In this document: positions 10,931 through 64,000 of the stretch, in pieces
Position numbering within the stretch: position 1 is the first letter of the stretch
Layout of the letters: each line of letters begins with the position of its first letter
From: Galerina marginata
Lineage: Eukaryota; Basidiomycota; Agaricomycetes; Agaricales; Galerinaceae
Length of the DNA stretch: 64,000 bases
Assembly (NCBI GenBank): GCA_023014335.1
Contig: JAECYW010000009.1
Span: 2,480,001-2,544,000, forward strand
Direction of reading: 5' to 3'
The notes under the pieces: generated by a model
What the model was told of the DNA's origin: nothing
What the model saw: only the letters and a program-made list of their open reading frames with translations
The model's database searches: none
Program-made: the position numbers and the translations under genes

Positions 10931-10931
10931 T

Positions 10932-22447: not shown

Positions 22448-25400
22448 CTTGGTCAGAGGCCATTGCTGCGCATGGCAAAAACAAGTTCTTACTTTGGGGT
22501 GAGGCAGTGCCTGAGGACTTACACTGTTATTAAACAAATACATATTAAATACGTAAATAACATGTAGTCCGCTCAAATGTGAACCAATTGGGATGATCTT
22601 ATACTCAAAAAAAGCAGAAAAATAAGGCGAATCTAACAAGCCTAAAACGGCCTGGTCACGTGACCAGGAAGGCCCTGATTTTTACGATTTTTTTGATACC
22701 AAGATCATAAAAATTGGCCCAGTAATGGGTGAGATACAGAAACCATGCAGGGTCACTATAGCAGTGGGAGAATTTCCAACCATTGCGTTAGAAACCATTT
22801 CTGCCTGCTATGCAGGCCGGAAAACAAGTTCTTTTACTACGTAAGAACTTGTAACAAGATTAATTAATTGACTACAATAAGAACTTGTAACAAGATTAAT
22901 TCTTACGTCACTTAGCTTTTATCGGATTGCCTTGAAACAAAGTGTGTAATTATCAGAAAAATCAGGGCTAAAAGATGGTGTCACATATGTATTGTCACAT
23001 CTTTATGTGACTTACCAAATGCGGAATATTGTTGAAAACACAGTAAATAAGCTATATTGAGAGATTTTAAAGGCATTAAAATAAAATAAAAATACTGATA
23101 ATCTTTTTTTTACCTAACAGGTGGTCTGTGCGCACATATCACATGACATATTCCTGAGAATATTTTTGTCCAAGTTGGTGCATTACCAAATCCAAGGCAA
23201 TTGCACAAAGTCCTGCTGTGAGTTTGATTATGTAAGCTTCTAGAACATTATTTTCATGTTATTTGGTCATGTTTTGCAAGGTTTGGTGTGCCTTTTATGG
23301 GTTATCCAGTCAGTTTAACACCAATTTTTGGATTTTCACCAAGTTGAGCTGACTGTTTGCCTGATTTGGACACCATGACATCATTGCAAAACATATGTAA
23401 ATATTTGTACATTATTCTATATTGGTCTGGGCGACACATTTTAGCATATCTAGCTCATTCAAATCTGTTTTAAGCATAAATTCACACAAATTTGCGCTTT
23501 TTGGGTCGTGTGAACAAGTCACATGACCTAATCAACCCTGGATACACATGCCACATGAAAGCCCTGATTTTTACGATTTTTTTGATACCAAGATCATAAA
23601 AATTGGCCCAGTAATGGGTGAGATACAGAAACCATGCAGGGTCACTATAGCAGTGGGAGAATTTCCAACCATTGCGTTAGAAACCATTTCTGCCTGCTAT
23701 GCAGGCCGGAAAACAAGTTCTTTTACTACGTAAGAACTTGTAACAAGATTAATTAATTGACTACAATAAGAACTTGTAACAAGATTAATTCTTACGTCAC
23801 TTAGCTTTTATCGGATTGCCTTGAAACAAAGTGTGTAATTATCAGAAAAATCAGGGCTAAAAGATGGTGTCACATATGTATTGTCACATCTTTATGTGAC
23901 TTACCAAATGCGGAATATTGTTGAAAACACAGTAAATAAGCTATATTGAGAGATTTTAAAGGCATTAAAATAAAATAAAAATACTGATAATCTTTTTTTT
24001 ACCTAACAGGTGGTCTGTGCGCACATATCACATGACATATTCCTGAGAATATTTTTGTCCAAGTTGGTGCATTACCAAATCCAAGGCAATTGCACAAAGT
24101 CCTGCTGTGAGTTTGATTATGTAAGCTTCTAGAACATTATTTTCATGTTATTTGGTCATGTTTTGCAAGGTTTGGTGTGCCTTTTATGGGTTATCCAGTC
24201 AGTTTAACACCAATTTTTGGATTTTCACCAAGTTGAGCTGACTGTTTGCCTGATTTGGACACCATGACATCATTGCAAAACATATGTAAATATTTGTACA
24301 TTATTCTATATTGGTCTGGGCGACACATTTTAGCATATCTAGCTCATTCAAATCTGTTTTAAGCATAAATTCACACAAATTTGCGCTTTTTGGGTCGTGT
24401 GAACAAGTCACATGACCTAATCAACCCTGGATACACATGCCACATGAAAGCCCTGATTTTTACGATTTTTTTGATACCAAGATCATAAAAATTGGCCCAG
24501 TAATGGGTGAGATACAGAAACCATGCAGGGTCACTATAGCAGTGGGAGAATTTCCAACCATTGCGTTAGAAACCATTTCTCACTGGATGCACAGTTAAAT
24601 AATTTGTGACAAATTATGTAACAATTATGCGATCATTATTCCTACTTTGAGCCATGTAATGTGTCGCCCAATATTTAAGCATTATTTAAGGCAGAATTAT
24701 TTAAGGATTATGTGAGATATATTCTGAACTTTTGGCCCATGTATCTCCTGCATAATTTTGGTTGAAATATGCAAGAAATATTTTGCTGTCTATATCTTTT
24801 AAATAATTCTGGGTTGACTATTCAAAAAATACATGAAAAATATGCAAGTGTGTAGTTCAGTAGTGTCACATATTTATTGGCTGAATATTTGAAAAATATG
24901 GAAGATATGAGTGTATCCAGACAACATATTTTCCAGCTGAATATTTGGAAATTATCTGACAGTTGAGTGTTCAAAAAATATCTGGAAATTATTTGAGATT
25001 GAAAACCAAGAATTTTAATGACTTACTGAGGTCTGAGAGTCTAACCAAAGACTTGGACAACTTCTGTGAATTTAAATTGAGGGAATTGTGGAATTTAGCG
25101 ATTTACAGACTCTGAAGATTCTAACTGAATATTTGGGCGATTTTTACGACTTTAAATTAAGAAGATTGTGGATTTTAGCGATTTGCTTACTCTGGAGATT
25201 CTAACCGAATATTTTTGCGATTTTCACGATTTTAAATTGGAGAAATCGTGGATTTTAACGATTTACAGACTCTGAAGATTCCAACCGAATATTTGGGCGA
25301 TTTCGCGATTTTAAATTGAAGGAATCGTGGATTCAGACGATTTCCTCACTCCAGAGATCAAGGGGTACTCGGGATCTTTATAACGGACCCGGGGTTGGGT

Positions 25401-28400
25401 GGTTGGTTCGGCTGTCAGGCCGCTAAATTTTTTTTTGACCTACCTATTTTTTGACGGAAAATAGCGGAAAACCTCTCTGCAAAGAGGCCAATGTCTGTAG
25501 AATATTTGTAAAATGGCTTTAATCATTGTTACGCCACTGGTAATCTGAAATTATCTCACAAACCTACCATTGAGCTGTTTTATTTGGCTCAAGAGTCAAG
25601 ACCGCTGTATTACCGGAGAATCATTTCCATAATGTCAATTTTCTATGCATCAGGCTGACAGGTTCAGTGACTGTGCCAGTGCACATACATTGGTAGCCAA
25701 AAGCTGGAAATACCATTCAAGTACGGTGTCGCCGCTGCGTCGGGGACTCGCGGCTCAGCAAAAAGTACCGTGATGACATAATATTTCCTAATATAGGTGT
25801 GTGCCTGATTACGTTGGCTGGTTGGTTCAACAAATCTCCGCTAAAAAAAAATTGGAACCCCAGGTCCAATTTTTTAATTTTCGAACCCCCTTGCCAGAGA
25901 TTCTAACCGAATATTTGGGCGATTTTAGCGATTTTAAATTGAAGAAACCGTGGACTTTAGCGGCTTACGGACTCTGAAGATTCTAACCGAGGGCTTTTGC
26001 GATTTTTGCGATTTTAAATTGGTGAAATCGTGGATTTTATTAACTTGCTCACTCTGGAGATTGTAACAGAATATTTGGGCGATTTTTGTGATTTTAAATT
26101 GAAGAGATCATGGATTCAGACAATTTCCTCACTCTGGACATTCCAACCGAATATTTCTGCGATTCTTACGATTTTAAAGTGAAGGGATCGTAAAAATCGC
26201 AGAAACGTTCGGTTTGAATCTCCAGAGTGAGGAAATTGTCTAAATCCACAATTTCTTCGATTTAAAATCGCGAAAATCGCCCAAATATTCTATTAGAATT
26301 TCCAGAGTGACCAAATCGGTAAAATCCATGATTTCTCTAATTTAAAATCGCAAAAATCATCCAAGTCTGGTTAGAATCTCAAGCGTGAACAAATCGTCTG
26401 AATCCATGATTTCTTCACTTTAAAATCGCGGAAATCGCCCAAATATTCGGTTGGAATCTGCAGAGTCTGTAAATCGTTAAAATCCACGATTTCTCCAATT
26501 TAAAATCGCAAAAATCGCAAAAATATTCGGTTAGAATCTCCAGAGTAAAAAAATCGCTAAAATCCACAATCTTCTTAATTTAAAGTCGTAAAAATCGCCC
26601 AAATATTCAGTTAGAATCTTCAGAGTCTGTAAATCGCTAAATTCCACAATTCCCTCAATTTAAATTCACAGAAGTTGTCCAAGTCTTTGGTTAGACTCTC
26701 AGACCTCAGTAAGTCATTAAAATTCTTGGTTTTCAATCTCAAATAATTTCCAGATATTTTTTGAATACTCAACTGTCAGATAATTTCCAAATATTCAGCT
26801 GGAAAATATGTTGTCTGGATACACTCATATCTTCCGTATTTTTCAAATATTCAGCCAATAAATATGTGACACTACTGAACTACACACTTGCATATTTTTC
26901 ATGTATTTTTTGAATAGTCAACCCAGAATTATTTAAAAGATATAGACAGCAAAATATTTCTTGCATATTTCAACCAAAATTATGCAGGAGATACATGGGC
27001 CAAAAGTTCAGAATATATCTCACATAATCCTTAAATAATTCTGCCTTAAATAATGCTTAAATATTGGGCGACACATTACATGGCTCAAAGTAGGAATAAT
27101 GATCGCATAATTGTTACATAATTTGTCACAAATTATTTAACTGTGCATCCAGTGTCTGCCTGCTATGCAGGCCGGAAAACAAGTTCTTTTACTACGTAAG
27201 AACTTGTAACAAGATTAATTAATTGACTACAATAAGAACTTGTAACAAGATTAATTCTTACGTCACTTAGCTTTTATCGGATTGCCTTGAAACAAAGTGT
27301 GTAATTATCAGAAAAATCAGGGCTAAAAGATGGTGTCACATATGTATTGTCACATCTTTATGTGACTTACCAAATGCGGAATATTGTTGAAAACACAGTA
27401 AATAAGCTATATTGAGAGATTTTAAAGGCATTAAAATAAAATAAAAATACTGATAATCTTTTTTTTACCTAACAGGTGGTCTGTGCGCACATATCACATG
27501 ACATATTCCTGAGAATATTTTTGTCCAAGTTGGTGCATTACCAAATCCAAGGCAATTGCACAAAGTCCTGCTGTGAGTTTGATTATGTAAGCTTCTAGAA
27601 CATTATTTTCATGTTATTTGGTCATGTTTTGCAAGGTTTGGTGTGCCTTTTATGGGTTATCCAGTCAGTTTAACACCAATTTTTGGATTTTCACCAAGTT
27701 GAGCTGACTGTTTGCCTGATTTGGACACCATGACATCATTGCAAAACATATGTAAATATTTGTACATTATTCTATATTGGTCTGGGCGACACATTTTAGC
27801 ATATCTAGCTCATTCAAATCTGTTTTAAGCATAAATTCACACAAATTTGCGCTTTTTGGGTCGTGTGAACAAGTCACATGACCTAATCAACCCTGGATAC
27901 ACATGCCACATGAAAGCCCTGATTTTTACGATTTTTTTGATACCAAGATCATAAAAATTGGCCCAGTAATGGGTGAGATACAGAAACCATGCAGGGTCAC
28001 TATAGCAGTGGGAGAATTTCCAACCATTGCGTTAGAAACCATTTCTGCCTGTTATGCAGGCCGGAAAACAAGTTCTTTTACTACGTAAGAACTTGTAACA
28101 AGATTAATTCATACGTCGCTTAGTTTTGATCGGATTGCCTTGAAATAAAGTGTTTAATTATCAGAAAAATCAGGGCTATAAAATGGTGTCACATATGTAT
28201 TGTCACATTTTCATGTGACTTACCAAATGCGGAATATTGTTTGAAATACATAGTAAATAAGCCATTTTAAGAGATTTTAAAGGCATTAGAGTAAAATAAA
28301 AATACTAATGATGTTTTTTTTACCTAAGAGATGGTCTGTGCACACATATCACATGACATATCCCTGAGAATATTTTGGTCCAAGTTGGTGCATTACCAAA

Positions 28401-28952
28401 TCCAAGGCAATTGCACAAAGTCCTGCTGTGAGTTTGATTATGTAGGCTTCTAGAACATTATTTTCATGTTATTTGGTCATGTTTTGCAATGTTTGGTGTG
28501 CCTTTTATGGGTTATCCAGTCAGTTTAACACCAATTTTCAGATTTTCACCAAGTTGAGCTGACTGTTTGCCTGATTTGGACACCATGACATCATTGCAAA
28601 ACATATGTAAATATTTGTACATTATTCTATATTGGTCTGGGCAACACATTTTAGCATATCTAGCTCATTCAAATCTGTTTTAAGCATAAATTCACACAAA
28701 TTTGCGCTTTTTGGGTCGTGTGAACAAGTCACATGACCTAATCAACCCTGGATACACATGCCACATGAAAGCCCTGATTTTTACGATTTTTTTGATACCA
28801 AGATCATAAAAATTGGCCCAGTAATGGCTGAGATACAGAAACCATGCAGGGTCACTATAGCAGTGGGAGAATTTCCAACCATTGCGTTAGAAACCATTTC
28901 TGCCTGTTATGCAGGCCGGAAAACAAGTTCTTTTACTACGTAAGAACTTGTA
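22448..28952 (+). mobile_element. Family A tandem-terminus array (A5)
   Basis: One 5' end at 22448, then 3'-terminal domains ending at 22853, 23742, 27208, 28097 and 28952. The period is 889, except the last step (855). The third unit is interrupted by a CACTG foldback element; subtracting that and its 3-bp duplication restores the 889 spacing exactly. Between termini is an AT-rich spacer of about 0.7 kb with no supported gene. Confidence 0.85.
24581..27154. mobile_element. Foldback element with CACTG ends and 3-bp TCT duplication
   Basis: A 2574-bp insertion in a family A unit. It begins CACTGGATGCACAGTTAAAT and ends in the inverted copy; TCT is duplicated at 24578-24580 and 27155-27157. 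The arms (about 24581-25370 and 26200-27154) are near-perfect inverted repeats and contain subrepeats of about 90 bp (words TTTAAATTGA, GAATATTTGGGCGAT). A 3-bp duplication with CACTR ends is the signature of the EnSpm/CACTA group. No transposase is visible, so it is a non-autonomous foldback. The core, about 25370-25900, holds unrecognised sequence. Confidence 0.75.
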
Positions 28953-29798
28953 ATGAAGCAGTCAATGAAGGGAGTGTAACTGCGGCATCCATTGCTGTCA
29001 CCATTGAGCGCGCCACTAAGGCTCTCCTTAGGGGGAGACCGAGTGTTGATGCTTCTCTTGCCGGGTCTCGACGACTCGCATCCGGGGTTGTTGATTTTAT
29101 CGCAGCCCTCAACAATGCCGGGTGGATAGATGTTTCCACCGGCGCCCCCCATGGATTCGTCGGATTATCCGAGGCAATCCTCCCTTTTATTCAGCTTCCC
29201 CGGGGAATGGACATCGACGATCAGACAATCCGTCGCCCTGTCGCAGCTGCTTCATCCGCCCCAGCCCTCTTCCCTCCGGAGAGGTCTGGACCCCCCGACG
29301 TTCCCCCTCCTCCCGATAGGAAGGGTAAGGGGAACGCCGACCATCCGAAAGGAGGTCGGAAACCCCAACCGCAACCGCGGCCTGCAAAGGCCAAGGAGGT
29401 GGTTCCTTTTCAGAGGCCTCCCCCGCCGATTCCTCTACACACCAAGCCCGGTAGGGCGCAGAAACCCGTTCGTGCGGGCTATGCGGCTGCTGCGGCTAAG
29501 CCAGCTGCTCCGGCGGCTGGTCCCTCCAAAAGGCCTCTTACGCCTTCTGTCCCCCAGGGCAATCCCGCTCCTGCCAAGACTTGTTAAGAGGCCATTGCTC
29601 TGCATGGCAAATACGAGTTCTTTTTCTTCTTAATTCTCTTTATCAAAGATTTTTCAATATATTATTGGGTTGTATATCAAAGATAGATTTTATTATATTT
29701 TTACCTGCATAGAGTAGCAGCACATGGCAAAAACAAGTCCTCATGTACTATGTCTCAGTAATTGATTAATAACAAAGTGAGATGTTATCTGATTGGAC

Positions 29799-30401
29799 TA
29801 GTGTTTTGAAGTCTGGTCCAGTCTGGTTTTTTCACATTTTTGGCAAGGACAGGGACTTTAACTGGTCCTAAAAATTTATAAATGTTCAGAAAACTGGACT
29901 GGACTGATGAGGACCAGTCCTCATTGGTTTTTTGCAGTCCTGGACCAGTCTTGGTCTTAACCGGTTGCCAGCTGGTCTCAACTGGTTTTTTGATACATTA
30001 ACATCAAGATTTAGTGTAGATATATGAATATAATTTGTAGAGATTATATATACCTTTAAAACGAGTCCAAGAACATTAAATTCTATTGAGAATTGGCAAT
30101 TATACGGAAATATTCACCATTTCCTACTCTTTTGGGAGTCTCAAAATGTTTTTTTTTATTTTTCAGTGTGAACTTTGTCTAAAATTATGATACATAGTGC
30201 GTTTTAAAGGAAAAAATAAGGGCTACAAAACTACTGGTTTGGACTGGTCTTAGGACCAAAAACTGGTCCTTAAAGACTGGTTTTTTTCCAGTTTTTCATT
30301 CTCAAATATCAAAAGACCAGACTGCTGGTCCAGTATTTTTGCAGTCTGGTCTGGTCTTTTTGCAGTCTTTTCCAGTCTTAGGACCGGACTTCAAAACACT
30401 A
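29799..30401. mobile_element. hAT-like MITE
   Basis: 603 bp with inverted ends TAGTGTTTTGAAGTC / GACTTCAAAACACTA and an 8-bp flank GATTGGAC (29791-29798) versus GATTGGGC (30402-30409), one mismatch. TAGTG ends and 8-bp duplications fit hAT. The interior is built of CTGGTCC/GGACCAG words; no coding region. Confidence 0.75.
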
Positions 30402-30589
30402 GATTGGGCTGATCCTGAACTCATTGGAAAGGTAATAAAAAGATGCATTTTATGGTATAAACCAGAAAATCACTAGTTTAGCTTGTACACAGTACTTATG
30501 CTTGCTATGCATTTGTAAAAGTAGTCTAAAGATATAAATCTAGTAAGTTATTGCTTTATATCAAGTTTTAATCCACACAGAAAGCAAAA

Positions 30590-31290
30590 AAAAAGGATAA
30601 AAAAGCGCCAGCAAAGCACTTTTCTAGCCTATACACAATCAACTGACATGACCTGTGCTAGGAAGAAAGCTATCTACAAATAAAAGTGCCCTAAAAACAT
30701 ATATCTAGCTATTTACTACTGTCTATCAAGGTTTACTTGACACAAAAAGGTAAAAAAAAGGTAAAAAAAGCGCCAGCAAAGCACTTTTCTAGCCCACACA
30801 CAGTCAACTGACATGACCTGTGCTAGAAAAGAAAGCTATCTACAAATAAAAGTGCCCTAAAAACATATATCTTAAAAACATATATCTAGCTATTTACTAC
30901 TGTCTATCAAGGTTTACTTGACACAAAAAGGTAAAAAAAAGGTAAAAAAAGCGCCAGCAAAGCACTTTTCTAGCCCACACACAGTCAACTGACATGACCT
31001 GTGCTAGAAAAGAAAGCTATCTACAAATAAAAGTGCCCTAAAAACATATATCTAGCTATATACTACTGTCTATCAAGTTTTACTCTACACAAAAAGATAA
31101 AAAAGAGGTAAAAAAGCGCCAGCAAAGCACTCTTCCAGCCTCAGAATCTATACTAGGGACTATCTACTAATGAAAGTACATTAAAAACTCATATTTAGCT
31201 AGTTAGTATTGAGTCTATTAAGTTTTAAACTACATAAAAAGCACAGAAAAAAAGGAGGAAAAGTGCCAGCAAAGCACCTTTCTGCTTTAT
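30590..31290. repeat. Tandem repeats of about 160-180 bp in family B element
   Basis: The block containing GCGCCAGCAAAGCAC and ACATGACCTGTGCTAG recurs at about 30605, 30768, 30950, 31115 and, diverged, at 31265. No coding capacity is evident. Confidence 0.7.
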
Positions 31291-31974
31291 ACAAACTTAT
31301 AATGAATCTAAAAAGAAAGAGACAATAGTTAGTAAGCTTTGACCAGCATGTCATGGTATCCCTCCAGTGAGGGGTACACTACCGACCTATCCGGGTGGAC
31401 TGACATGCTGGTAAAGAAGAAAGAAAGAAGTGATGAGCTGGCAGTTTATAACTATGTGACATATGTTACAAGTCACACAGATTTATCTAATCCAATAAGA
31501 TAAGATAAGATAAGATAAGATAAGACAAGATAAGACAAGATAAAAAGATAACCCTAGTGTATTATATACTGGATCCTTCATACTTATGAATAATTGTATT
31601 GAATGTGGCCAAAGACAGAACTGCTTATATAAATTCCTATTTGGATATTATTTCTGTTAGCACAAGATCATGTTTAATAGGGTAGTTCTTGAAACCTTTT
31701 CAAAGCTGGTTTTATAAATAATAGTACATTTAAAAGGCCTGAATTTTATAATTTTTTTGATATTATTTTTGTCAGAATTGATTCAGCAACAATTGAAAAA
31801 GACCAAAGGCAATATTTAATGTGGCTCTGCAGAGTATCCTGTGGCTGTGCAAAATACCCATAGAAAGGCCTGAATTTTACAAATTTTTTGATATAAGTTT
31901 TGCAAGAATTGACCAAGTACTGATATTTTAAATGTAAAATTAGAGATTTTATATTTTCTGTTGTGGCTGTGCTA

Positions 31975-32374
31975 TCGGTCCTCTTAGGGTTAGAATCAAA
32001 AACACACCTAAAATTTTAAACTTCAGAAATGGATTTTAAATATAAATCTGAGGTTTCCTAGTGATAACAAGCCAACTGGACTGTACTCATAGGGTTAGCA
32101 CAGCCACAACAAAAATCATATTTGTCTTGGTATCAATATTAAACCTCAGATTTATATTTAAAATCCATTTCTGAAGTTTAAAATTTTAGGTGTGTTTTTG
32201 ATTCTAACCCTAAGAGGACCGACGCGTCGGTCCTCTTAGGGTTAGCACAGCCACAAAAAAAAAAATCATATACCTCAGAATTATATTTAAAATGCATATC
32301 TGAAGTTTAAAGTTTTAGGTGTGTTTTTGATTCTAACCCTAAGAGGACCAACGCGTCAGTCCTCTTAGGGTTAG
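31975..32374. repeat. Foldback repeats joined by GC-rich palindromes
   Basis: 31975-32050 is inverted at 32145-32222. A perfect 42-bp palindrome at 32204-32245 centres on GACGCGTC, and a near copy lies at 32333-32374. The arms carry CTTAGGGTTAG, so a telomere-like word is present but not tandem. Confidence 0.65.
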
Positions 32375-33203
32375 CACAGCCACAACACAAAAAAAAATTA
32401 TTTGGCTTGTTATCAATATTCAACCTCAGACTTCTATTTAAAAGGCATTTTCAATGCTTAAAGTTTTTGATGTGTTCATTTTTAGCATGTCAATTCTCCT
32501 GAGTTTGATTTCAAACCAACGGTAAACAGAAGTATTACATTGAAGGATATAGAAAGTACTAGGAGAAGTTGAACAAGACTTACAACAAGTATTATTTATT
32601 ACTGGAATGCAGTGGAAGTGATCTAGAAGTATATAAATAGATATACAACTGACATGAACCATGTTTGGTGACTGTTTAGTCATATAAGCTATATATAAAC
32701 CATAGCAACCAGAGCAAGAGCCTGTAACGGACTGCAAAGTAAAAGAAGTGATATTTAATCACATTACTGACAAAACCTGACCTTAGTTTAGGTGTCCAGG
32801 AACAAAAGCTAAAAATAGACCATAGCAACGGACATCAGACAACCATTCCCATGGTCAATAATGATTTTGACACTATTAGAAAAGTTTGTAGACTTTTAAT
32901 TCAGGGTCGCTCACAAAAAATGAAGCAGTGGGAGAATTTCCAACCATCGCGTTAGGAATCATTTCCTTCTGCTATCGAGTGTAGAAAACGAGTTCTTTTA
33001 ATAGGTAAGAACTCGTAAAGCAGAAGAAGGAAACCCCTCTCTTCACATCGTCGGGTCCCTCGCGCAAGCAGGTCCTCGTCGACTTTGCCTTGCCTTCGCC
33101 CCCCGCGGTCGAAGGTGATCGTCTTTTGGACATCATCACAAGGTCCTTATCCACCCACGGAGCCAGCGTCAAGGCTGAGTCCGTCTCTCGGGCTTATCGA
33201 GGT

Positions 33204-35035
33204 TACAAGTTCTTACGTAGTAAAAGAACTTGTGATGTCATGGTGTCAAATCTGGCAAACAGTCAGCTCAACTTGGTGAAAATCCGAAAATTGGTGTTAA
33301 ACTGACTGGATAACCCATAAAAGGCACACCAAACATTGCAAAACATAACCAAATAACATGGAAATAATGTTCTAGAAGCTTACATAATCAAACTCACAGC
33401 AGGACTTTGTGCAATTGCCTTGGATTTGGTAATGCACCAACTTGGACCAAAATATTCTCAGGGATATGTCATGTGATATGTGTGCACAGACCATCTCTTA
33501 GGTAAAAAAAACATTATCAGTATTTTTATTTCATTTTAATGCCTTTAAAATCTCTCAATATAGCTTATTTACTGTGTTTTCAACAATATTCCGCATTTGG
33601 TATGTCACATCAAGATGTGACAATACGCATGTGACACCATCTTTTAGCCCTGATTTTTCTGATAATTACACATTTTGTTTCAAGGCAATCTGATAAAAAC
33701 TAAGCAACGTATAAATTAATCTTCTTATAAGTTTCTTATTGTAGTCTAATAATTAATCTTGTTACAAGTTCTTACGTAGTAAAAGAACTTGTTTTCCGGC
33801 CTGCATAGCAGGCAGAAAACATTCCTAACGCAATGGTTCGAAATTCTCCCACTCATATAGTGACCCTGCATGGTTTCTGTATCTCAGCCATTACTGGGCC
33901 AATTTTTATGATCTTGGTATCAAAAAATTCGTAAAAATCAGGGCTTTCATGTGGCATGTGTATCCAGGGTCAATTTGGTCATGTGACCTGCTCACACAAC
34001 CCAAAAAGCGCAAATTTGTGTAAATTTACACTTGAAATGGATTTCAGTGAGCTAGATAGGCTAAAATGTGTGGCCCAGACCAATCTAAAATAATGTACAA
34101 ATATTTACATATGTTTTGCAATGATGTCATGGTGTCAAATCTGGCAAACAGTCAGCTCAACTTGGTGAAAATCCGAAAATTGGTGTTAAACTGACTGGAT
34201 AACCCATAAAAGGCACACCAAACATTGCAAAACATAACCAAATAACATGGAAATAATGTTCTAGAAGCTTACATAATCAAACTCACAGCAGGACTTTGTG
34301 CAATTGCCTTGGATTTGGTAATGCACCAACTTGGACCAAAATATTCTCAGGGATATGTCATGTGATATGTGTGCACAGACCATCTCTTAGGTAAAAAAAA
34401 CATTATCAGTATTTTTATTTCATTTTAATGCCTTTAAAATCTCTCAATATAGCTTATTTACTGTGTTTTCAACAATATTCCGCATTTGGTATGTCACATC
34501 AAGATGTGACAATACGCATGTGACACCATCTTTTAGCCCTGATTTTTCTGATAATTACACATTTTGTTTCAAGGCAATCTGATAAAAACTAAGCAACGTA
34601 TAAATTAATCTTCTTATAAGTTTCTTATTGTAGTCTAATAATTAATCTTGTTACAAGTTCTTACGTAGTAAAAGAACTTGTTTTCCGGCCTGCATAGCAG
34701 GCAGAAAACATTCCTAACGCAATGGTTCGAAATTCTCCCACTCATATAGTGACCCTGCATGGTTTCTGTATCTCAGCCATTACTGGGCCAATTTTTATGA
34801 TCTTGGTATCAAAAAATTCGTAAAAATCAGGGCCTTCCTGGTCACGTGACCAGGCCGTTTTAGGCTTGTTAAAACCGCCTCATTTTTCTGCTTTTTTCAA
34901 GTATAAGATCATCCCAATAGCTTCAGATTTGAGCGGACTATGCATTATTTACTTATTTAACCTTTATTTATAGTCGCACTCACCTTGAAAGTAAGAACTT
35001 GTTTTTGCCATGTGCAGCAATGGCCTCTGACCAAG
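33204..35035 (-). mobile_element. Family A element with three 3' termini, outermost reduced to the hairpin (A6)
   Basis: 1832 bp in reverse orientation. Hairpins begin at 33204, 33763 and 34652; the 5' end closes at 35035. The outermost terminus keeps only about 29 bp (the hairpin) before joining interior spacer sequence. Removing the element plus one T (T33203/T35036) restores LINE ORF1 (YRGYSIATSG), checked against copy 1. Confidence 0.8.
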
Positions 35036-41780: not shown

Positions 41781-41995
41781 ACCCAGAAGCGTGTGTTACC
41801 CGCCTGCGAGGCTCTCTCTTACCAGGGAGCCCCGTGCATTTCACTTGATTCCCTTTGCAGCCATGTATGCTAGATTTCTATATGAAACCTTGGCAGTTGC
41901 CTAATAGGCTGATACATCCAGAAGGCCAACTGCCTAACTTCCCAATTAAGTAATAAATCACATGACCTTGAGATATATGACAAATACAAAATATT

Positions 41996-42092: not shown

Positions 42093-42788
42093 TTATAAAT
42101 GTCTGTAATTTATGTACATTATATACCCTCCCCCACTTAAATTTATATTATTATTATAATATGTTCAGGCACTTGGCAGGGGGCTATACCATCATGTTAT
42201 ACACCAAAATGACGGGAAAAATGAGGGGAACACGATGGTGACACGCGCGTGACGCGTTACGCGTTTTTGCGCATGTCACACGCGAAATAGCGCGTTTTTT
42301 AGACCAAATTGATGCGCTCCATGCTTCAAAATGCATATTACATAATGTATTATATATCACTAGAATCATGCTTTTACGCCGGTTTTGACTATATATAATT
42401 CACGCGTGTGCGCTGCTTTTGATGCGTGTTCTACGGCGTTTTACGCGTTTTATGTCCCGGAAAGCGCGTTATTTCCCACGCTCATTTCACCATTATTTTA
42501 TGTTAAATTATAGCTTTCGAACGGTATATATTATGTCATAAAATACGCGCTTATAAGCCTTAAGCGCCGCATTTTAGAGCTAAAATCGCGCTATTTCACG
42601 TGTGACATGCGCAAAAACGCGTAACGCGTCACGCGCGTGTCACCATCGTGTTCCCCTCATTTTTCCCGTCATTTTGGTGTATAACATGATGGTATAGCCC
42701 CCTGCCAAGTGCCTGAACATATTATAATAATAATATAAATTTAAGTGGGGGAGGGTATATAATGTACATAAATTACAGACATTTATAA

Positions 42789-46390: not shown

Positions 46391-46405
46391 TATATGCTTC
46401 TCCAC
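46391..46405. repeat. Target-site duplication of LINE copy 2, right
   Basis: TATATGCTTCTCCAC, identical to 22215-22229. Confidence 0.9.
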
Positions 46406-48250: not shown

Positions 48251-51200
48251 CTTGGTCAGAGGCCATTGCTGCACATGGCAAAAACAAGTTCTTACCTTGG
48301 GGGTTTTTGTTATTATCTAAATACATGTTAAATAAGTAAATAATAGGTAGTCCGCTCAAATCTGAACCGATTGGGATGATCTTATACTCAAAAAAAGCAA
48401 AAAATGAGGCAATTCTAACAAGCCTAAAATCAACTGGTCACGTGACCAGGAAGGCCCTGATTTTTACGATTTTTTTGATACCAAAATCATTAAATTTGGC
48501 CCAGTAATGGCTGAGATACAGAAATCATGCAGGGTCACTGTATGAGTGGGAGAATTTCCAACCATTGCGTTAGAAACCATTTCTGCCTGCTATGCAGGCC
48601 GGAAAACAAGTTCTTTTACTACGTAAGAACTTGTAACAAGATTAATTATTAGACTACAATAAGAAACTTGTAAAAAGATTAATTCTTACGTCACTTAGTT
48701 TTTATCGGATTGCCTTGAAACAAAATGTGTAATTATCAGAAAAATCAGGGCTAAAAGATGGTGTCACATATGTATTGTCACACCTTTATGTGACTTACCA
48801 AATGCGGAATATTGTTTGAAATACACTATATTGGGAGATTTAAAGGCATTAAAATAAAATAAAAATACAGATGATGTTTTTTTTACCTAAGGGATGGTCT
48901 GTGCACACATATCACATGACATATCCCTGAGAATATTTTGGTCTAACTTGGTGCCTCAATTGATTTCAAGGGATTTGCACAAAGTCCTGCTGTGAGTTTG
49001 ATTATGTAAGCTTCTAGAACATTATTTCCATGTTATTTGGTTACAAGTGCTTACGTAGTAAAAGAACTTGTTTTCCGGCCTGCATAGCAGGCAGAAAACA
49101 TTCCTAACGCAATGGTTGGAAATTCTCCCACTCATACAGTGACCCTGCATGGTTTCTGTATCTCAGCCATTACTGGGCCAATTTTTATGATCTTGGTATC
49201 AAAAAATTCGTAAAAATCAGGGCTTTCATGTGGCATGTGTATCCAGGGTTGATTAGGTCATGTGACCTGTTCACACGACCCAAAAAACGCAAATTTGTGT
49301 AAATTTACACTTAAAATGAATTTCAGTGAGCTAGATATACTAAAATATGTTACCCAGACCAATCTAAAATAATGTACAAATATTTACATATGTTTTGCAA
49401 TGATGTCATGATGTCCAAATCTGGCAAACAGCCAGCTTAACTCAGTGAAAATCGCAAAATTGGTGTTAAACTAACTGGATAACCCATAAAAGGCACACCA
49501 AACATTGCAAAACATGACCAAATAACATGGAAATAATGTTCTAGAAGCTTACATAATCAAACTCACAGCAGGACTTTGTGCAATTGCCTTGGATTTGGTA
49601 ATGCACCAACTTGGACAAAAATATTCTCAGGGATATGTCATGTGATATGTGTGCACAGACCATCTCTTAGGTAAAAAAAACATTATCAGTATTTTTGTTT
49701 TATTTTAATGTCTTTAAAATCTCTCAATATAGCTTATTTACTGTGTTTTCAACAATATTCCGCATTTGGGAAGTCACATGAAGATGTGACAATACGCATG
49801 TGACACCATATTTTAGCCCTGATTTAGCCCTGATTTTTCTGATAATTACACACTTTGTTTCAAGGCAATCTGATAAAAACTAAGCGACGTATTACAAGTT
49901 CTTACGTAGTAAAAGAACTTGTTTTCCGGCCTGCATAGCAGGCAGAAATGGTTTCTAACGCAATGGTTGGAAATTCTCCCACTGCTATAGTGACCCTGCA
50001 TGGTTTCTGTATCTCAGCCATTACTGGGCCAATTTTTATGATCTTGGTATCAAAAAATTCGTAAAAATCAGGGCTTTCATGTGGCATGTGTATCCAGGGA
50101 CGATTAGGTCATGTGACTCGTTCACACGACCCAAAAAGCGCAAATTTGTGTGAATTTACACTTAAAACAGATTTCAGTGAGCTAGATATGCTAAAATGTG
50201 TTGTCCAGACCAATCTAGAATAATGTACAAATATTTACATATGTTTTGCAATGATGTCATGGTGTCCAAATCAGGCAAACAGTCAGCTCAACTTGGTGAA
50301 AATCCAAAAATTGGTGTTAAACTGACTGGATAACCCATAAAAGGCACACCAAACATTGCAAAACATCACCAAATAACTTGAAAATAATGTTCTAGAAGCT
50401 TACATAATCAAACTCATAGCAGGACTTTGTGCAATTGCCTTGGATTTGGTAATGCACCAACTTGGACCAAAATATTCTCAGGGATATGTCATGTGATATG
50501 TGTGCACAGACCATCTCTTGGGTAAAAAAAACATTATCAGTATTTTTATTTTATTTTAATGCCTTTAAAATCTCTCAATATAGCTTATTTACTGTGTTTT
50601 CAACAATATTCCGCATTTGGTAAGTCACATAAAGATGTGACAATACCCATGTGACACCATCTTTTAGCCCTGATTTTTCTGATAATTACACACTTTGTTT
50701 CAAGGCAATCCGATAGAAACTAAGCGACGTATGAATTAATCTTCTTACAAAGTTCTTATTGTAGTCAATTAATTAATCTTGTTACAAGTTCTTACGTAGT
50801 AAAAGAACTTGTTTTCCGGCCTGCATAGCAGGCAGAAATGGTTTCTAACGCAATGGTTGGAAATTCTCCCACTGCTATAGTGACCCTGCATGGTTTCTGT
50901 ATCTCAGCCATTACTGGGCCAATTTTTATGATCTTGGTATCAAAAAATTCGTAAAAATCAGGGCTTTCATGTGGCATGTGTATCCAGGGACGATTAGGTC
51001 ATGTGACTCGTTCACACGACCCAAAAAGCGCAAATTTGTGTGAATTTACACTTAAAACAGATTTCAGTGAGCTAGATATGCTAAAATGTGTTGTCCAGAC
51101 CAATCTAGAATAATGTACAAATATTTACATATGTTTTGCAATGATGTCATGGTGTCCAAATCAGGCAAACAGTCAGCTCAACTTGGTGAAAATCCAAAAA

Positions 51201-52532
51201 TTGGTGTTAAACTGACTGGATAACCCATAAAAGGCACACCAAACATTGCAAAACATCACCAAATAACTTGAAAATAATGTTCTAGAAGCTTACATAATCA
51301 AACTCATAGCAGGACTTTGTGCAATTGCCTTGGATTTGGTAATGCACCAACTTGGACCAAAATATTCTCAGGGATATGTCATGTGATATGTGTGCACAGA
51401 CCATCTCTTAGGTAAAAAAAACATTATCAGTATTTTTATTTTATTTTAATGCCTTTAAAATCTCTCAATATAGCTTATTTACTGTGTTTTCAACAATATT
51501 CCGCATTTGGTAAGTCACATAAAGATGTGACAATACCCATGTGACACCATCTTTTAGCCCTGATTTTTCTGATAATTACACACTTTGTTTCAAGGCAATC
51601 CGATAGAAACTAAGCGACGTATGAATTAATCTTCTTACAAAGTTCTTATTGTAGTCAATTAATTAATCTTGTTACAAGTTCTTACGTAGTAAAAGAACTT
51701 GTTTTCCGGCCTGCATAGCAGGCAGAAATGGTTTCTAACGCAATGGTTGGAAATTCTCCCACTGCTATAGTGACCCTGCATGGTTTCTGTATCTCAGCCA
51801 TTACTGGGCCAATTTTTATGATCTTGGTATCAAAAAAATCGTAAAAATCAGGGCCTTCCTGGTCATGTGACCAGGCCGTTTTAGGCTTGTTAGATCCGCC
51901 TCATTTTTCTGCTTTTTTTGAGTATAAGATCGTCCCAATCGGTTCAGATTTGAGCGGACTATGCATTATTTACTCATTTAACCTTTATTTATAGTCGGAC
52001 TCACCTTGAAAGTAAGAACTTGTTTTTGCCATGCGCAGCAATGGCCTCTGACCAAGTCATGTTTTGCAATGTTTGGTGTGCCTTTTATGGGTTTTCTAGT
52101 CAGTTTAACACCAATTTTCGGATTTTCACCAAGTTGAGCTGACTGTTTGCCTGATTTGGACACCATGACATCATTGCAAAACATATGTAAATATTTGTAC
52201 ATTATTCTAGATTGGTCTGGGCAACACATTTTAGTATATTTAGCTCACTGAAATCTGTTTTAAGTGTAAATTCACACAAATTTGCGCTTTTTGGGTTGTG
52301 TGAACAAGTCACATGACCTAATCATCCCTGGATACACATGCCGCATGAAAGCCCTGATTTTTACGAATTTTTTGATACCAAGATCATAAAAATTGGCCTA
52401 GTAATGGCTGAGATACAGAAACCATGCAGGGTCACTATAGCAGTGGGAGAATTTCCAACCATTGCGTTAGAAACCATTTCTGCCTGCTATGCAGGCCGGA
52501 AAACAAGTTCTTTTACTACGTAAGAACTTGTA
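48251..52532 (+). mobile_element. Family A element (A8) with a nested inverted array
   Basis: The 5' end is at 48251, the first terminus ends near 48642, and the final terminus ends at 52532. It is interrupted at 49042-52056. Removing the nested copy plus one T (T49041/T52057) rejoins the family A spacer exactly. The left flank is the host gene and the right flank a LINE relic, so its own empty site cannot be checked. Confidence 0.8.
49042..52056 (-). mobile_element. Family A tandem-terminus array, four termini (A9)
   Basis: 3015 bp in reverse orientation, with hairpins starting at 49042, 49893, 50783 and 51673 (steps 851, 890, 890) and the 5' end closing at 52056. The outermost hairpin has one stem mismatch (ACAAGTGCTT). 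Confidence 0.85.
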
Positions 52533-52533
52533 A

Positions 52534-54768: not shown

Positions 54769-55420
54769 CTATCTTAAAGCTATGCATGTAGTGTTACACA
54801 GCCTGTAAAGCCATGAAAGTAATATTGCACAGCTATTAAAACCATGAGATTAGTATTGCACAGCCTTTAAAGCTATGAAAGTAGTATCGCGCAGCCTTTA
54901 AAGCTATGAGATTAGTATTGCGCAGCCTTTAAAGCTATGAGATTAGTATCGCGCAGCCTTTAAAGCCATGAAATTTGTATCGCGCAGCCTTTAAAGCTAT
55001 TACAAGTTCTTACGTAGTAAAAGAACTTGTTTTCCGGCCTGCATAGCAGGCAGAAAACATTCCTAACGCAATGGTTGGAAATTCTCCCACTGCTATAGTG
55101 ACCCTGCATGGTTTCTGTATCTCAGCCATTACTGGGCCAATTTTTATGATCTTGGTATCAAAAAAATCGTAAAAATCAGGGCCTTCCTGGTCACGTGACC
55201 AGGCCGTTTTAGGCTTGTTAGATCCGCCTCATTTTTCTGCTTTTTTTGAGTATAAGATCATCCTAATAGCTTCAGATTTGAGCGGACTATGTAATATTTA
55301 CTTATTTAACCTTTATTTATAGTCGGACTCACCTAGAAAGTAAGAACTTGTTTTTGCCATGCGCAGCAATGGCCTCTGACCAAGTGAAATTAGTATCGCG
55401 CAGCCCTAAACCTATGAGAG
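54769..55420. repeat. 31-bp minisatellite, interrupted by a family A element
   Basis: Units such as CAGCCTTTAAAGCTATGAGA plus TTAGTATCGCG repeat about seven times from 54790 to 55000 and resume at 55385-55420 beyond the family A insertion. Confidence 0.8.
55001..55384 (-). mobile_element. Family A element, single unit (A10), in the minisatellite
   Basis: 384 bp in reverse orientation. T55000/T55385 is the only shared base; removing the element restores the minisatellite unit (AAAGCTATGAAATTAGTAT). Confidence 0.85.
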
Positions 55421-55479
55421 TATGTCTATATAAGATTCCAGAATACTACAATGAGCTTTAATTTCTTTCACTCACTCCA

Positions 55480-57493: not shown

Positions 57494-57533
<40 letters not shown>

Positions 57534-58830: not shown

Positions 58831-58876
58831 TACTTCTTGCTAGTCTTTGTCAAATTTGGCAACAGTTCTGAGACAT

Positions 58877-59212
58877 TATGAGTCTTTTGATTTATCAAAA
58901 ACTCATTCATTATTCCAGGACTTAGGCCAAAAATTGATTCATTCATTCATTGATTCATCCATCAACACCGCGGTAAAAACCTTCCTATTACAAACAATTG
59001 TCCATATCTCAGCCAGTTCTAGGCCAATTTTTATGATCCTGCCACCAGTAAATCCCATTTTTTGCCCCCTACACGATTATGTTATCAGGTAAGCATGATG
59101 GCATCAATTTTGTGGGAAGATCGGCCCAAACATGTCATTTTATGCTTGAAAAGCACACAACTGGGCTGTTTTATATCAGATTTAAGTGATTCAACTTGTT
59201 TTCAGACATATT
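58877..59212 (-). mobile_element. Family C element fragment (C2), 3' end
   Basis: It starts with the family C hairpin in reverse (TATGAGTCTTTTGATTTATC then AAAAACTCAT) and shares the ATCAACACCGCGG region with C1 (8140-8165). Its 5' end is missing where the family A array begins at 59214. Confidence 0.6.
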
Positions 59213-59213
59213 A

Positions 59214-62200
59214 CTTGGTCAGAGGCCATTGCTGCGCATGGCAAAAACAAGTTCTTACTTTCAAGGTGAGTCCGACTATAAATAAAGATTAAATAAGTAA
59301 ATAATGCATAGTCCGCTCAAATCTGAACCAATTGGGATGATCTTATACTCAAAAAAAGCAGAAAAATAAGGCGGATCTAACAAGCCTAAAACGGCCTGGT
59401 CACATGACCAGGAAGGCCCTGATTTTTACGATTTTTTTGATACCAAGATCATAAAAATTGGCCCAGTAATGGCTGAGATACAGAAACCATGCAGGGTCAC
59501 TATAGCAGTGGGAGAATTTCCATTGGTTTTGTTAGGAACCATTTCTGCCTGCTATGCAGGCCGGAAAACAAGTTCTTTTACTACGTAAGAACTTGTAACA
59601 AGATTAATTATTAGACTACAATAAGAAACTTGTAACAAGATTAATTTATACGTCGCTTAGTTTTTATCAGATTGCCTTGAAACAAAGTGTGTAATTATCA
59701 GAAAAATCAGGGCTAAAAGATGGTGTTACATATATATTGTCACACCTGTATGTGACTTACCAAATGCGGAATATTGTTTGAAATACACTATATTTGGAGA
59801 TTTAAAGGCATTAAAATAAAATAAAAATACAGATAATGTTTTTTTTACCTAAGGGATGGTCTGTGCACACATATCACATGACATATCCCTGAGAATATTT
59901 TTGTCTAACTTGGTGCCTTAACTGATTCCAAGGGATTTGCACAAAGTCCTGCTGTGAGTTTGATTATGTAAGCTTCTAAAACAATATTTTCATGTTATTT
60001 GGTCATGTTTTTCAATGTTTGGTGTGCCTTTTATGGGTTATCCAGTCAGTTTAACACCAATTTTGCGATTTTTACTGAGTTAAGCTGGCTGTTTGCCAGA
60101 TTTGGACACCATGACATCATTGCAAAACATATGCAAATATTTGTACATTATTCTAGATTGGTCTGGGTAACATATTTTAGTATATCTAGCTCACTGCAAT
60201 CTGTTTTAAGTGTAAATTTGCGCTTTTTGGGTCGTGTGAGCAGGTCACATGACCTAATCAACCCTGGATACACATGCCACATGAAAGCCCTGATTTTTAC
60301 GATTTTTTTGATACCAAGATCATAAAAATTGGCCCAGTAATGGCTGAGATACAGAAACCATGCAGGGTCACTATAGCAGTGGGAGAATTTCCATTGGTTT
60401 TGTTAGGAACCATTTCTGCCTGCTATGCAGGCCGGAAAACAAGTTCTTTTACTACGTAAGAACTTGTAACAAGATTAATTATTAGACTACAATAAGAAAC
60501 TTGTAACAAGATTAATTTATACGTCGCTTAGTTTTTATCAGATTGCCTTGAAACAAAGTGTGTAATTATCAGAAAAATCAGGGCTAAAAGATGGTGTTAC
60601 ATATATATTGTCACACCTGTATGTGACTTACCAAATGCGGAATATTGTTTGAAATACACTATATTTGGAGATTTAAAGGCATTAAAATAAAATAAAAATA
60701 CAGATAATGTTTTTTTTACCTAAGGGATGGTCTGTGCACACATATCACATGACATATCCCTGAGAATATTTTTGTCTAACTTGGTGCCTTAACTGATTCC
60801 AAGGGATTTGCACAAAGTCCTGCTGTGAGTTTGATTATGTAAGCTTCTAAAACAATATTTTCATGTTATTTGGTCATGTTTTTCAATGTTTGGTGTGCCT
60901 TTTATGGGTTATCCAGTCAGTTTAACACCAATTTTGCGATTTTTACTGAGTTAAGCTGGCTGTTTGCCAGATTTGGACACCATGACATCATTGCAAAACA
61001 TATGCAAATATTTGTACATTATTCTAGATTGGTCTGGGTAACATATTTTAGTATATCTAGCTCACTGCAATCTGTTTTAAGTGTAAATTTGCGCTTTTTG
61101 GGTCGTGTGAGCAGGTCACATGACCTAATCAACCCTGGATACACATGCCACATGAAAGCCCTGATTTTTACGATTTTTTTGATACCAAGATCATAAAAAT
61201 TGGCCCAGTAATGGCTGAGATACAGAAACCATGCAGGGTCACTATAGCAGTGGGAGAATTTCCATTGGTTTTGTTAGGAACCATTTCTGCCTGCTATGCA
61301 GGCCGGAAAACAAGTTCTTTTACTACGTAAGAACTTGTAACAAGATTAATTATTAGACTACAATAAGAAACTTGTAACAAGATTAATTTATACGTCGCTT
61401 AGTTTTTATCAGATTGCCTTGAAACAAAGTGTGTAATTATCAGAAAAATCAGGGCTAAAAGATGGTGTTACATATATATTGTCACACCTGTATGTGACTT
61501 ACCAAATGCGGAATATTGTTTGAAATACACTATATTTGGAGATTTAAAGGCATTAAAATAAAATAAAAATACAGATAATGTTTTTTTTACCTAAGGGATG
61601 GTCTGTGCACACATATCACATGACATATCCCTGAGAATATTTTTGTCTAACTTGGTGCCTTAACTGATTCCAAGGGATTTGCACAAAGTCCTGCTGTGAG
61701 TTTGATTATGTAAGCTTCTAAAACAATATTTTCATGTTATTTGGTCATGTTTTTCAATGTTTGGTGTGCCTTTTATGGGTTATCCAGTCAGTTTAACACC
61801 AATTTTGCGATTTTTACTGAGTTAAGCTGGCTGTTTGCCAGATTTGGACACCATGACATCATTGCAAAACATATGCAAATATTTGTACATTATTCTAGAT
61901 TGGTCTGGGTAACATATTTTAGTATATCTAGCTCACTGCAATCTGTTTTAAGTGTAAATTTGCGCTTTTTGGGTCGTGTGAGCAGGTCACATGACCTAAT
62001 CAACCCTGGATACACATGCCACATGAAAGCCCTGATTTTTACGATTTTTTTGATACCAAGATCATAAAAATTGGCCCAGTAATGGCTGAGATACAGAAAC
62101 CATGCAGGGTCACTATAGCAGTGGGAGAATTTCCATTGGTTTTGTTAGGAACCATTTCTGCCTGCTATGCAGGCCGGAAAACAAGTTCTTTTACTACGTA

Positions 62201-64000
62201 AGAACTTGTAACAAGATTAATTATTAGACTACAATAAGAAACTTGTAACAAGATTAATTTATACGTCGCTTAGTTTTTATCAGATTGCCTTGAAACAAAG
62301 TGTGTAATTATCAGAAAAATCAGGGCTAAAAGATGGTGTTACATATATATTGTCACACCTGTATGTGACTTACCAAATGCGGAATATTGTTTGAAATACA
62401 CTATATTTGGAGATTTAAAGGCATTAAAATAAAATAAAAATACAGATAATGTTTTTTTTACCTAAGGGATGGTCTGTGCACACATATCACATGACATATC
62501 CCTGAGAATATTTTTGTCTAACTTGGTGCCTTAACTGATTCCAAGGGATTTGCACAAAGTCCTGCTGTGAGTTTGATTATGTAAGCTTCTAAAACAATAT
62601 TTTCATGTTATTTGGTCATGTTTTTCAATGTTTGGTGTGCCTTTTATGGGTTATCCAGTCAGTTTAACACCAATTTTGCGATTTTTACTGAGTTAAGCTG
62701 GCTGTTTGCCAGATTTGGACACCATGACATCATTGCAAAACATATGCAAATATTTGTACATTATTCTAGATTGGTCTGGGTAACATATTTTAGTATATCT
62801 AGCTCACTGCAATCTGTTTTAAGTGTAAATTTGCGCTTTTTGGGTCGTGTGAGCAGGTCACATGACCTAATCAACCCTGGATACACATGCCACATGAAAG
62901 CCCTGATTTTTACGATTTTTTTGATACCAAGATCATAAAAATTGGCCCAGTAATGGCTGAGATACAGAAACCATGCAGGGTCACTATAGCAGTGGGAGAA
63001 TTTCCATTGGTTTTGTTAGGAACCATTTCTGCCTGCTATGCAGGCCGGAAAACAAGTTCTTTTACTACGTAAGAACTTGTAACAAGATTAATTATTAGAC
63101 TACAATAAGAAACTTGTAACAAGATTAATTTATACGTCGCTTAGTTTTTATCAGATTGCCTTGAAACAAAGTGTGTAATTATCAGAAAAATCAGGGCTAA
63201 AAGATGGTGTTACATATATATTGTCACACCTGTATGTGACTTACCAAATGCGGAATATTGTTTGAAATACACTATATTTGGAGATTTAAAGGCATTAAAA
63301 TAAAATAAAAATACAGATAATGTTTTTTTTACCTAAGGGATGGTCTGTGCACACATATCACATGACATATCCCTGAGAATATTTTTGTCTAACTTGGTGC
63401 CTTAACTGATTCCAAGGGATTTGCACAAAGTCCTGCTGTGAGTTTGATTATGTAAGCTTCTAAAACAATATTTTCATGTTATTTGGTCATGTTTTTCAAT
63501 GTTTGGTGTGCCTTTTATGGGTTATCCAGTCAGTTTAACACCAATTTTGCGATTTTTACTGAGTTAAGCTGGCTGTTTGCCAGATTTGGACACCATGACA
63601 TCATTGCAAAACATATGCAAATATTTGTACATTATTCTAGATTGGTCTGGGTAACATATTTTAGTATATCTAGCTCACTGCAATCTGTTTTAAGTGTAAA
63701 TTTGCGCTTTTTGGGTCGTGTGAGCAGGTCACATGACCTAATCAACCCTGGATACACATGCCACATGAAAGCCCTGATTTTTACGATTTTTTTGATACCA
63801 AGATCATAAAAATTGGCCCAGTAATGGCTGAGATACAGAAACCATGCAGGGTCACTATAGCAGTGGGAGAATTTCCATTGGTTTTGTTAGGAACCATTTC
63901 TGCCTGCTATGCAGGCCGGAAAACAAGTTCTTTTACTACGTAAGAACTTGTAACAAGATTAATTATTAGACTACAATAAGAAACTTGTAACAAGATTAAT
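59214..64000 (+). mobile_element. Family A tandem-terminus array, at least six termini (A11), runs off right edge
   Basis: The 5' end is at 59214; 3' termini end at 59597, 60468, 61339, 62210, 63081 and 63952, exactly 871 apart, and the sequence continues into another spacer at the window end. Units look identical by eye. It belongs to the subfamily with CCATTGGTTTTGTTAGGA in place of CCAACCATTGCGTTAGAA (as at 13370-13470). No gene. Confidence 0.9.

Follow-up and report, generated by a model that had tools for sequence, protein, structure and literature searches.

The window analysed here is a stretch of 64,000 nucleotides from the basidiomycete Galerina marginata (assembly GCA_023014335.1, contig JAECYW010000009.1, positions 2,480,001 to 2,544,000), which corresponds to C43:2480001-2544000 in the 69.3 Mb, 43-contig genome that was analysed. 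It holds head-to-tail arrays of non-autonomous Helitron2-type transposons, which have a repeated hairpin end, called LTS and assigned below to the 5' side, and a single end, called RTS and assigned to the 3' side; n is the number of LTS in one element. The array names A5, A7, A9 and A11 come from a first-pass annotation of the same DNA, which gives no coordinates for them, and were matched to coordinates in this analysis. Most of the multi-LTS elements of the window, and an insertion that splits one of them, are the following:

36930..41781, minus strand: A7 array, six LTS (41781, 40892, 40003, 39114, 38225, 37336) and one RTS (36930); 889-bp units; inserted in the open reading frame (ORF) of a long interspersed nuclear element (LINE); gapless empty site, 91%
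22448..28953, minus strand: A5 array, five LTS (28953, 28098, 27209, 23743, 22854) and one RTS (22448); outermost unit 855 bp, divergent
24581-27154: insertion of 2574 bp with inverted ends (CACTG...), which splits A5; 3-bp duplication (TCT), ends CACTGGATGCACAG..., holds 80-bp tandem repeats
59214..64000 in the window, minus strand: A11 array, nine LTS (59598 to 66566) and one RTS (59214); empty site 100% identical
49041..52056, plus strand: four-LTS array, probably A9 (49041, 49892, 50782, 51672), RTS at 52056; empty site 98.75%
48251..52533, minus strand: host array, two LTS (52533, 48636) and one RTS (48251), linked by hand; broken by the array at 49041-52056
33203..35035, plus strand: three-LTS array (33203, 33762, 34651), RTS at 35035; first spacer truncated; empty site weak, 75%
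13084..16264, minus strand: composite with an autonomous-type LTS (16264), two family-1 LTS (14356 and 13467) and one RTS (13084), linked by hand; in a LINE; gapless empty site, 97.5%

The head-to-tail units of 851-890 bp, each with a full hairpin, that the first-pass annotation had described are confirmed, apart from one truncated unit of 559 bp and a one-base loop change in one of the six hairpins of A7. A7 has six repeated ends and the array that is probably A9 has four; A11 has nine, three of which lie beyond the window end, and its eight 871-bp units show zero differences. A5 and a supposedly separate chimera (probably the block 27155-28953) are one array of five hairpins, which is split by the 2574-bp insertion, presumably a CACTA-like element. 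An empty site was not found for A5, and a separate look-up of its flanks gave no firm result. The array at 49041-52056 has a divergent outer unit of 851 bp and two units of 890 bp, and it sits in the spacer of the host array, for which no empty site was found in the flank-join search. A long foldback-like inverted repeat, seen by eye at window 42100-42750, flanks A7.

Structure of the termini

The single terminus, CTTGGTCAGAGGCC, is a real feature, as the first-pass annotation had held, with 14 matches in the window at up to 2 mismatches against 0.20 expected. A genome-wide search for both ends finds 561 copies of this terminus (28-mer, up to 3 mismatches) and 884 copies of the hairpin (39-mer, up to 3 mismatches). 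Taking one array as reference, the elements are built from three blocks, which are a 190-bp block ended by the hairpin, a 217-bp (or ~195-bp) block with the single terminus, and a 703-bp spacer. Solo elements consist of the hairpin block and the single-terminus block; of the 25 solos, 24 measure 354-408 bp and one 472 bp. Arrays consist of (hairpin block + spacer)n followed by one solo-like closing piece. The LTS-to-LTS period is 0.72-0.89 kb across the arrays sampled. One example of each end is given here:

37306..37336, minus strand: LTS hairpin TTACAAGTTCTTACGTAGTAAAAGAACTTGT, with a 10-bp stem, 2 nt from the 5' terminus; z -5.4 against shuffles
36930..36975, minus strand: RTS, with the sub-terminal inverted repeat GTAAGAACTTGT, then GCCAT...ATGGC, and the end CTCTGACCAAG before the target T

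The LTS hairpin folds much better than shuffled sequence (z -5.4 and -4.0), whereas the RTS, whose GCCAT...ATGGC sits 11 nt from the end, folds no better (z -0.21). The inverted repeat is found 2 nt from the 5' end, within the hairpin, and 33 nt from the 3' end. Two positions of this repeat separate three families, ACAAGTTCTT, ACGAGTTCTT and ACAAGTCCTT. In the copies read, the two variable bases change together, and the family version is present in the RTS repeat as well as in each arm of the LTS hairpin, which supports recognition of both ends by one protein.

Polarity and the autonomous partner

The Helitron Rep domain PF14214 has at least 120 matches in the genome, and the RepHel ORF of two copies, whose sites (C6 and C12) are unrelated, stops ~0.2 kb before an RTS. 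The autonomous-class terminus at these sites is 98.8% identical over 406 bp up to ...GGCCTCTAAACAAG, with nothing shared beyond, and it is the reverse complement of what the first-pass annotation took for the 5' end. The autonomous-type RTS pattern is found at 28 places in the genome at up to 1 mismatch, and 24 of them have PF14214 upstream in matching orientation within 15 kb, ten of the 28 at 4976±2 bp. The remaining four have Rep at 21.6, 35.2 and 79.3 kb and, in one case, none among the coordinates used; these distances were computed on 45 of the at least 120 Rep matches, which lie on 12 contigs and were picked in or near copy clusters.

The hairpin end of the autonomous class begins with TTACGAGTTC (once TTACAAGTTC) in nine copies with differing flanks, and the LTS boundary is at TTAC. 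The nearest listed hairpins in the right orientation upstream of Rep are ~27 kb off in the C6 and C12 copies, and joining them by spacing and orientation suggests an autonomous element of ~33 kb, which on C6 would extend from the LTS at C6:1792274 to the RTS at C6:1825605.

The position of RepHel and the anatomy of the termini place initiation at the repeated hairpin, which makes it the 5' end, and termination at the single end, which makes that the 3' end. The orientation of the ORF can be inverted in Helitron2-like elements, according to the accessible text of PMC5148889, so the polarity rests on ORF position and anatomy together. Polarity and element class, taken jointly, are held with high confidence. 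The rolling-circle type proposed by the first-pass annotation is thereby borne out, by the RepHel partner and by terminus anatomy, and its 5' and 3' ends are swapped. With the swap, copying past the 3' terminator is not the rule, as the terminator is the seldom repeated part, and the mistaken idea of routine terminator read-through falls away.

The partner domains PF20209, PF14214 and PF05970 (PIF1 helicase) are present on three ORF pieces of one RepHel copy (C6:1930001-1940000). No Exo_endo_phos endonuclease match was obtained at E<=0.01 in these three pieces, between which a nested insertion leaves a gap. Homologues with the DUF6570-Rep-PIF1 organisation number at least 120 in a protein search, among them one from Amanita brunnescens.

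The RepHel ORF at 4153-8430 of the same C6 piece has a long C-terminal extension past the helicase, which has no Pfam match and by eye looks cysteine-peptidase-like. A second class of Helitron Rep gives 18 matches (~190-211 bits), dispersed over contigs and mostly outside the clusters. Two elements that lie beside Rep sequence were considered as the 5' region of an autonomous gene and rejected, since both are insertions and each locus shows the empty site of the other.

Number of ends per element

Ends were counted in 308.5 kb, made up of the 64 kb window and 244.5 kb of neighbouring and other cluster sequence. These stretches were picked for holding copies, some of them for exceptions or long arrays, so the counts are not those of a random sample. 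Smaller extra pieces served for the autonomous element only, and ten short loci were left out of the counts. The final LTS and RTS counts come from plain mismatch scanning; approximate regular expressions missed at least one mutated hairpin. The scan behind the flank bases and the unit comparison was also a plain mismatch scan, but it mis-sorted abutting RTS and LTS. A closed chain is by definition a run of LTS ended at the first RTS.

The sampled sequence holds 154 LTS and 77 RTS, which form 56 closed elements with 1-11 LTS: 25 with one LTS, 19 with two and 12 with three to eleven, so that 31 of the 56 have two or more. Unpaired are 13 LTS chains without a nearby RTS and 21 RTS without a nearby LTS, which are long or broken elements, members of other families or ends of sampled sequence. 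Because a chain stops at the first RTS by definition, the independent check is the order of same-strand neighbours within 1 kb, which are LTS-LTS in 85 cases, LTS-RTS in 57, RTS-LTS in 10 and RTS-RTS in 8. The RTS is strongly, not absolutely, non-repeated. The earlier claim that the single terminus is never repeated within an array thus stands for all window arrays but one, and for elements in general as what is normally found; it does not stand for every case, as the eight RTS-RTS neighbours show, one of which is the exception in the window:

9648..11240, plus strand: LTS at 9648 and 10528, RTS at 10930, then a truncated second element with its RTS at 11240

Among the exact matches listed for contig C1 (43 LTS and 43 RTS), LTS-LTS neighbours number 19 and RTS-RTS neighbours 4; of the closed elements among these matches, 13 have one LTS, 5 have two, 2 have three and 2 have six, and 2 LTS and 21 RTS are unpaired. 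A stretch of C4 has three head-to-tail RTS|LTS junctions. In the third family, with ACAAGTCCTT-type ends, an element at C43:2463411-2464499 has two LTS and one RTS with a period of 724 bp and a 100% empty site within a RepHel ORF, so the multi-LTS design occurs in more than one family.

Homogeneity of units and sister arrays

In nine of the ten arrays with n of at least 4, no unit differs from the first by more than one substitution or indel; the exception is the window array at 49041-52056, with its divergent outer unit. Among the 33 chains whose unit measures 700-900 bp, 7, which form three sister groups, differ from their closest other chain by 0-1 change; for 25 the difference is 6-55 changes, and for the third family it is 251.

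One sister pair is C6:1773934 (n=11) and C6:1847701 (n=7), whose closing pieces do not differ and whose units differ by 0-1 change. Both are flanked by diverged repeats (65-78% over 166-354 bp, with a few short matches above that), and the two are therefore taken as separate insertions. In the pair C34:2520085 (n=5) and C34:2539739 (n of at least 10, as the sampled sequence ends within it), the units are the same, a single change separates the closing pieces, and the flanks on the RTS side are unrelated. Likewise, the units of A7 (n=6) match those of the RTS-proximal part of A5 exactly; the closing pieces of the two differ by 2 changes, and their RTS-side flanks are unrelated. Sister arrays with near-identical units and different n indicate that unit number changes faster than sequence.

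Two further ideas were examined and dropped. Solos might be recent products of the innermost LTS, but just 2 of 25 are within 4 differences of the closing piece of a sampled array, so they are not mainly recent products of these arrays. Variants specific to closing pieces might mark separate lineages; both of the differences that recur are located at the edge of the shared block, and no conclusion was drawn from them.

Insertion sites and genomic location

Empty sites were sought with 63 flank joins, which are those of the 56 closed chains and 7 linked by hand; five of the seven share their RTS with one of the 56, and the third-family element entered twice. A spanning site is found for 33 of the 63 joins, gapless at the junction in 31 and with a gap in 2, and 30 have none. 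The strong cases include an array with n=9 (100%), the mixed-unit array with n=4 (98.75%), several two-LTS elements (98-100%) and an array with n=6 (91%). Matches below 80% identity are weak (73.97, 75.0 and 77.5), and in C4 a few matches are to tandem duplicates related to the locus itself. The inserted sequence has the ends TTAC...CAAG and stands ahead of T, without target duplication, and the target is N^T. The base to the right of the RTS is T in 54 of 54 cases, and the base to the left is G in 25, A in 21 and T in 8. The arrays are bounded by exact junctions, and nested insertions are seen repeatedly. A tandem repeat with a 690-bp period lies at C43:2477014-2479120, and another copy of this sequence is where the nine-LTS array inserted.

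The genome-wide search that yielded the 28 autonomous-type RTS at up to 1 mismatch covers 77 places on 16 contigs, in stretches of up to ~250 kb, with two groups on C39. Other patterns broaden the clusters, with a second C4 group at 717-725 kb and a C40 cluster from 2405 to 2818 kb. The presence of one cluster on most of these contigs suggests that they mark putative centromeres.

Other elements in the window

The remaining elements of the window have one LTS and one RTS or belong to related families:

872..1278, minus strand: single-unit element, one LTS and one RTS
2406..2792, minus strand: single-unit element
6312..7954, plus strand: related 1.6 kb non-autonomous element, one LTS (hairpin seen by eye, below the scan threshold) and one RTS
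29580..33018, minus strand: non-autonomous element, longer, from a related family with ACGAGT-type ends; one LTS and one RTS, linked by hand; empty site 84.5%
55000..55384, plus strand: single-unit element within a 31-bp tandem repeat

Inside the 3.4 kb element at 29580-33018 there is a 181-bp tandem repeat (window 30559-31140). LINE fragments are found at window 16221-20167, 35031-37015, 42981-45701 and 53333-54793, and several insertions lie inside them. Two LINE ORFs that were scanned have endonuclease and reverse transcriptase domains, with a weak RNase H match below the Pfam cut-off.

Proposed mechanism of unit amplification

Rolling-circle transposition is predicted to give tandem arrays as a by-product, and such arrays have been proposed as a source of satellites. 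The reading that we favour, and consider somewhat probable, is that the arrays are non-autonomous Helitron2-type elements with a RepHel partner in the genome, whose LTS-to-LTS units were multiplied during rolling-circle transposition. Replication would start at any LTS and end at the first RTS downstream, so that internal LTS would be carried along and a second RTS would rarely be included. The composite at 16264-13084, which has an autonomous-type LTS outside, family-1 LTS inside and one RTS, exemplifies a start at the outer LTS. The LTS-to-LTS unit (0.72-0.89 kb) would multiply most likely as a circle without RTS in rolling-circle replication, and the product, (LTS-spacer)n with one closing LTS-RTS piece, would insert as a block before T. 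In Helraiser, a canonical Helitron, the 3' hairpin is a bypassable terminator, and of the two ends the 5' one alone is essential, as the available text of PMC4778049 describes. Rolling-circle amplification after a circle loses its 3' terminator was proposed by Xiong et al. 2016, as related in the accessible part of PMC12628747.

A more specific version, which we advance tentatively, is that n is reset at each jump. Rep would treat the next LTS as a regenerated origin, and an RTS-less LTS-to-LTS circle of ~0.85-0.89 kb would roll out a fresh array with one RTS piece. If this is true, it would be a direct route from transposon to satellite at fungal centromeres.

Several points weigh against the favoured reading. 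Unequal crossing-over or replication slippage in an element already inserted would equally give identical units and a labile n, a clean empty site leaves open how many units arrived with the insertion, and only 2 of the 25 solos are within 4 differences of a sampled closing piece. The eight RTS-RTS neighbours violate the one-RTS rule. The autonomous LTS, ~27 kb from Rep, is tied to it by spacing and orientation only, and the pairing of the variable bases is broken, with one arm changed, in 7 of the 84 autonomous-type LTS listed (up to 1 mismatch); in a smaller set, 1 of 10 LTS likewise departs from the family version.

The same element, with the same polarity, may have gained its units once it was in place, the 0.18 kb LTS repeats being the substrate of unequal sister-chromatid exchange or of replication slippage. 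Near-identical direct repeats of 183 bp are good substrates for such exchange, which would leave the units of an array identical or nearly so and n labile, as is seen, and A5, for which no empty site was found, mixes unit types. However, sister insertions that show at most one substitution already have different n, and the empty site of an array with two unit types is gapless, which points to units already mixed when the array inserted. A fast exchange would still be compatible with both observations, and we see growth after insertion as a possible, rather unlikely source of the arrays. Multiple LTS could also come solely from self-insertion, if the nested elements then transpose as one, starting at the outer LTS and stopping at the first RTS, a model set out in the available part of PMC5148889. 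Nested insertions recur, and such a history would give the composite, whose autonomous-type LTS lies outside its family-1 LTS and whose empty site is gapless. Self-insertion alone does not yield up to ten identical units of one period, though, and uniform arrays are the rule at n of at least 4 (nine of ten), so as the sole source it is improbable; it probably explains the mixed elements with n=2-3 and the first duplication.

The model of the first-pass annotation, with one 5' end and repeated 3' terminators made by copying through the terminator, has in its favour that canonical Helitrons carry a hairpin near the 3' end, as the accessible text of PMC4778049 states. It is nevertheless very improbable, as the position of RepHel and the terminus anatomy give the opposite polarity, which the ORF alone would not settle. 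It is equally hard to believe that the unit numbers or the arrays are assembly artefacts. Identical units are difficult to assemble, and an error could alter n, but it could hardly create the design, which is found with differing periods and flanks at many loci, at gapless empty sites and with an insertion inside a single unit.

Comparison with known systems

Among rolling-circle transposons, the elements described here differ from canonical Helitron1 elements (5'-TC...CTRR-3', A^T target) in their TTAC...CAAG ends and N^T target, and several of their features recur in Helentrons and HINEs. In the available text of PMC4067079, Helentrons, HINEs and DINE-1 have one sub-terminal inverted repeat (subTIR) that lies 2 nt in from the 5' end and another within the 3' end; they insert with T at the 3' junction and do not duplicate the target. 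HINEs are described there as non-autonomous, with ends common to a RepHel partner, tandem repeats in some copies and, in a mite, a 3' subTIR at 38-60. The 5' subTIR 2 nt in, the lack of target duplication, the T at the 3' junction and the RepHel partner of non-autonomous elements are the same here, whereas the 3' subTIR is 33 nt from the end and the tandem repeats contain the full 5' terminus. Compared with the Helentrons of Thomas et al. 2014, which have T on both sides and an endonuclease domain fused to RepHel, the left base here shows no preference for T (G 25, A 21 and T 8), and there is no endonuclease domain in the scanned RepHel pieces of one copy. The Helentron palindrome lies 8-35 bp from the 3' end; here GCCAT...ATGGC lies 11 nt from the end and its fold is no better than that of shuffles (z -0.21).

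FoHeli of Fusarium oxysporum has a 5' hairpin with an inverted repeat, a 3' inverted repeat 20-51 bp inside and a RepHel protein, and it shows several 5' termini with one 3' terminus, the 5' duplications being typically <200 bp; three tandem Helitron copies are found in Metarhizium acridum (both in the accessible text of PMC5148889). Our elements share with FoHeli a Rep and PIF1 helicase partner, asymmetric inverted repeats, the absence of target-site duplication and the layout of multiple 5' ends with one 3' end. They differ in that the units include a spacer of ~0.7 kb and reach many copies. An open-access literature search, mostly of records without full texts, surfaced no description of long multi-LTS arrays in fungi.

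The plant centromeric Helitrons of Xiong et al. 2016 have multiple 5' ends with one 3' end in head-to-tail arrays, which are mostly centromeric, according to the available parts of PMC12628747 and PMC6591975. The many 5' ends with a single 3' end and the head-to-tail order are the same here, whereas our elements are of Helitron2 type, have regular, near-identical units of 0.72-0.89 kb with n from 1 to at least 11, and have a putative centromeric location. With the polarity corrected, the multiple-5'-end, one-3'-end pattern had already been described in plants and in Fusarium, and the distinct design claimed by the first-pass annotation is not supported. The plant arrays are partially decayed and truncated, as far as the accessible text of PMC12628747 goes, while those of G. 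marginata look young and are unusually regular, with identical units and several empty sites at 98-100%. Such young-looking arrays, bounded on both sides and with sister insertions that differ in n, make it testable whether arrays grow during or after transposition.

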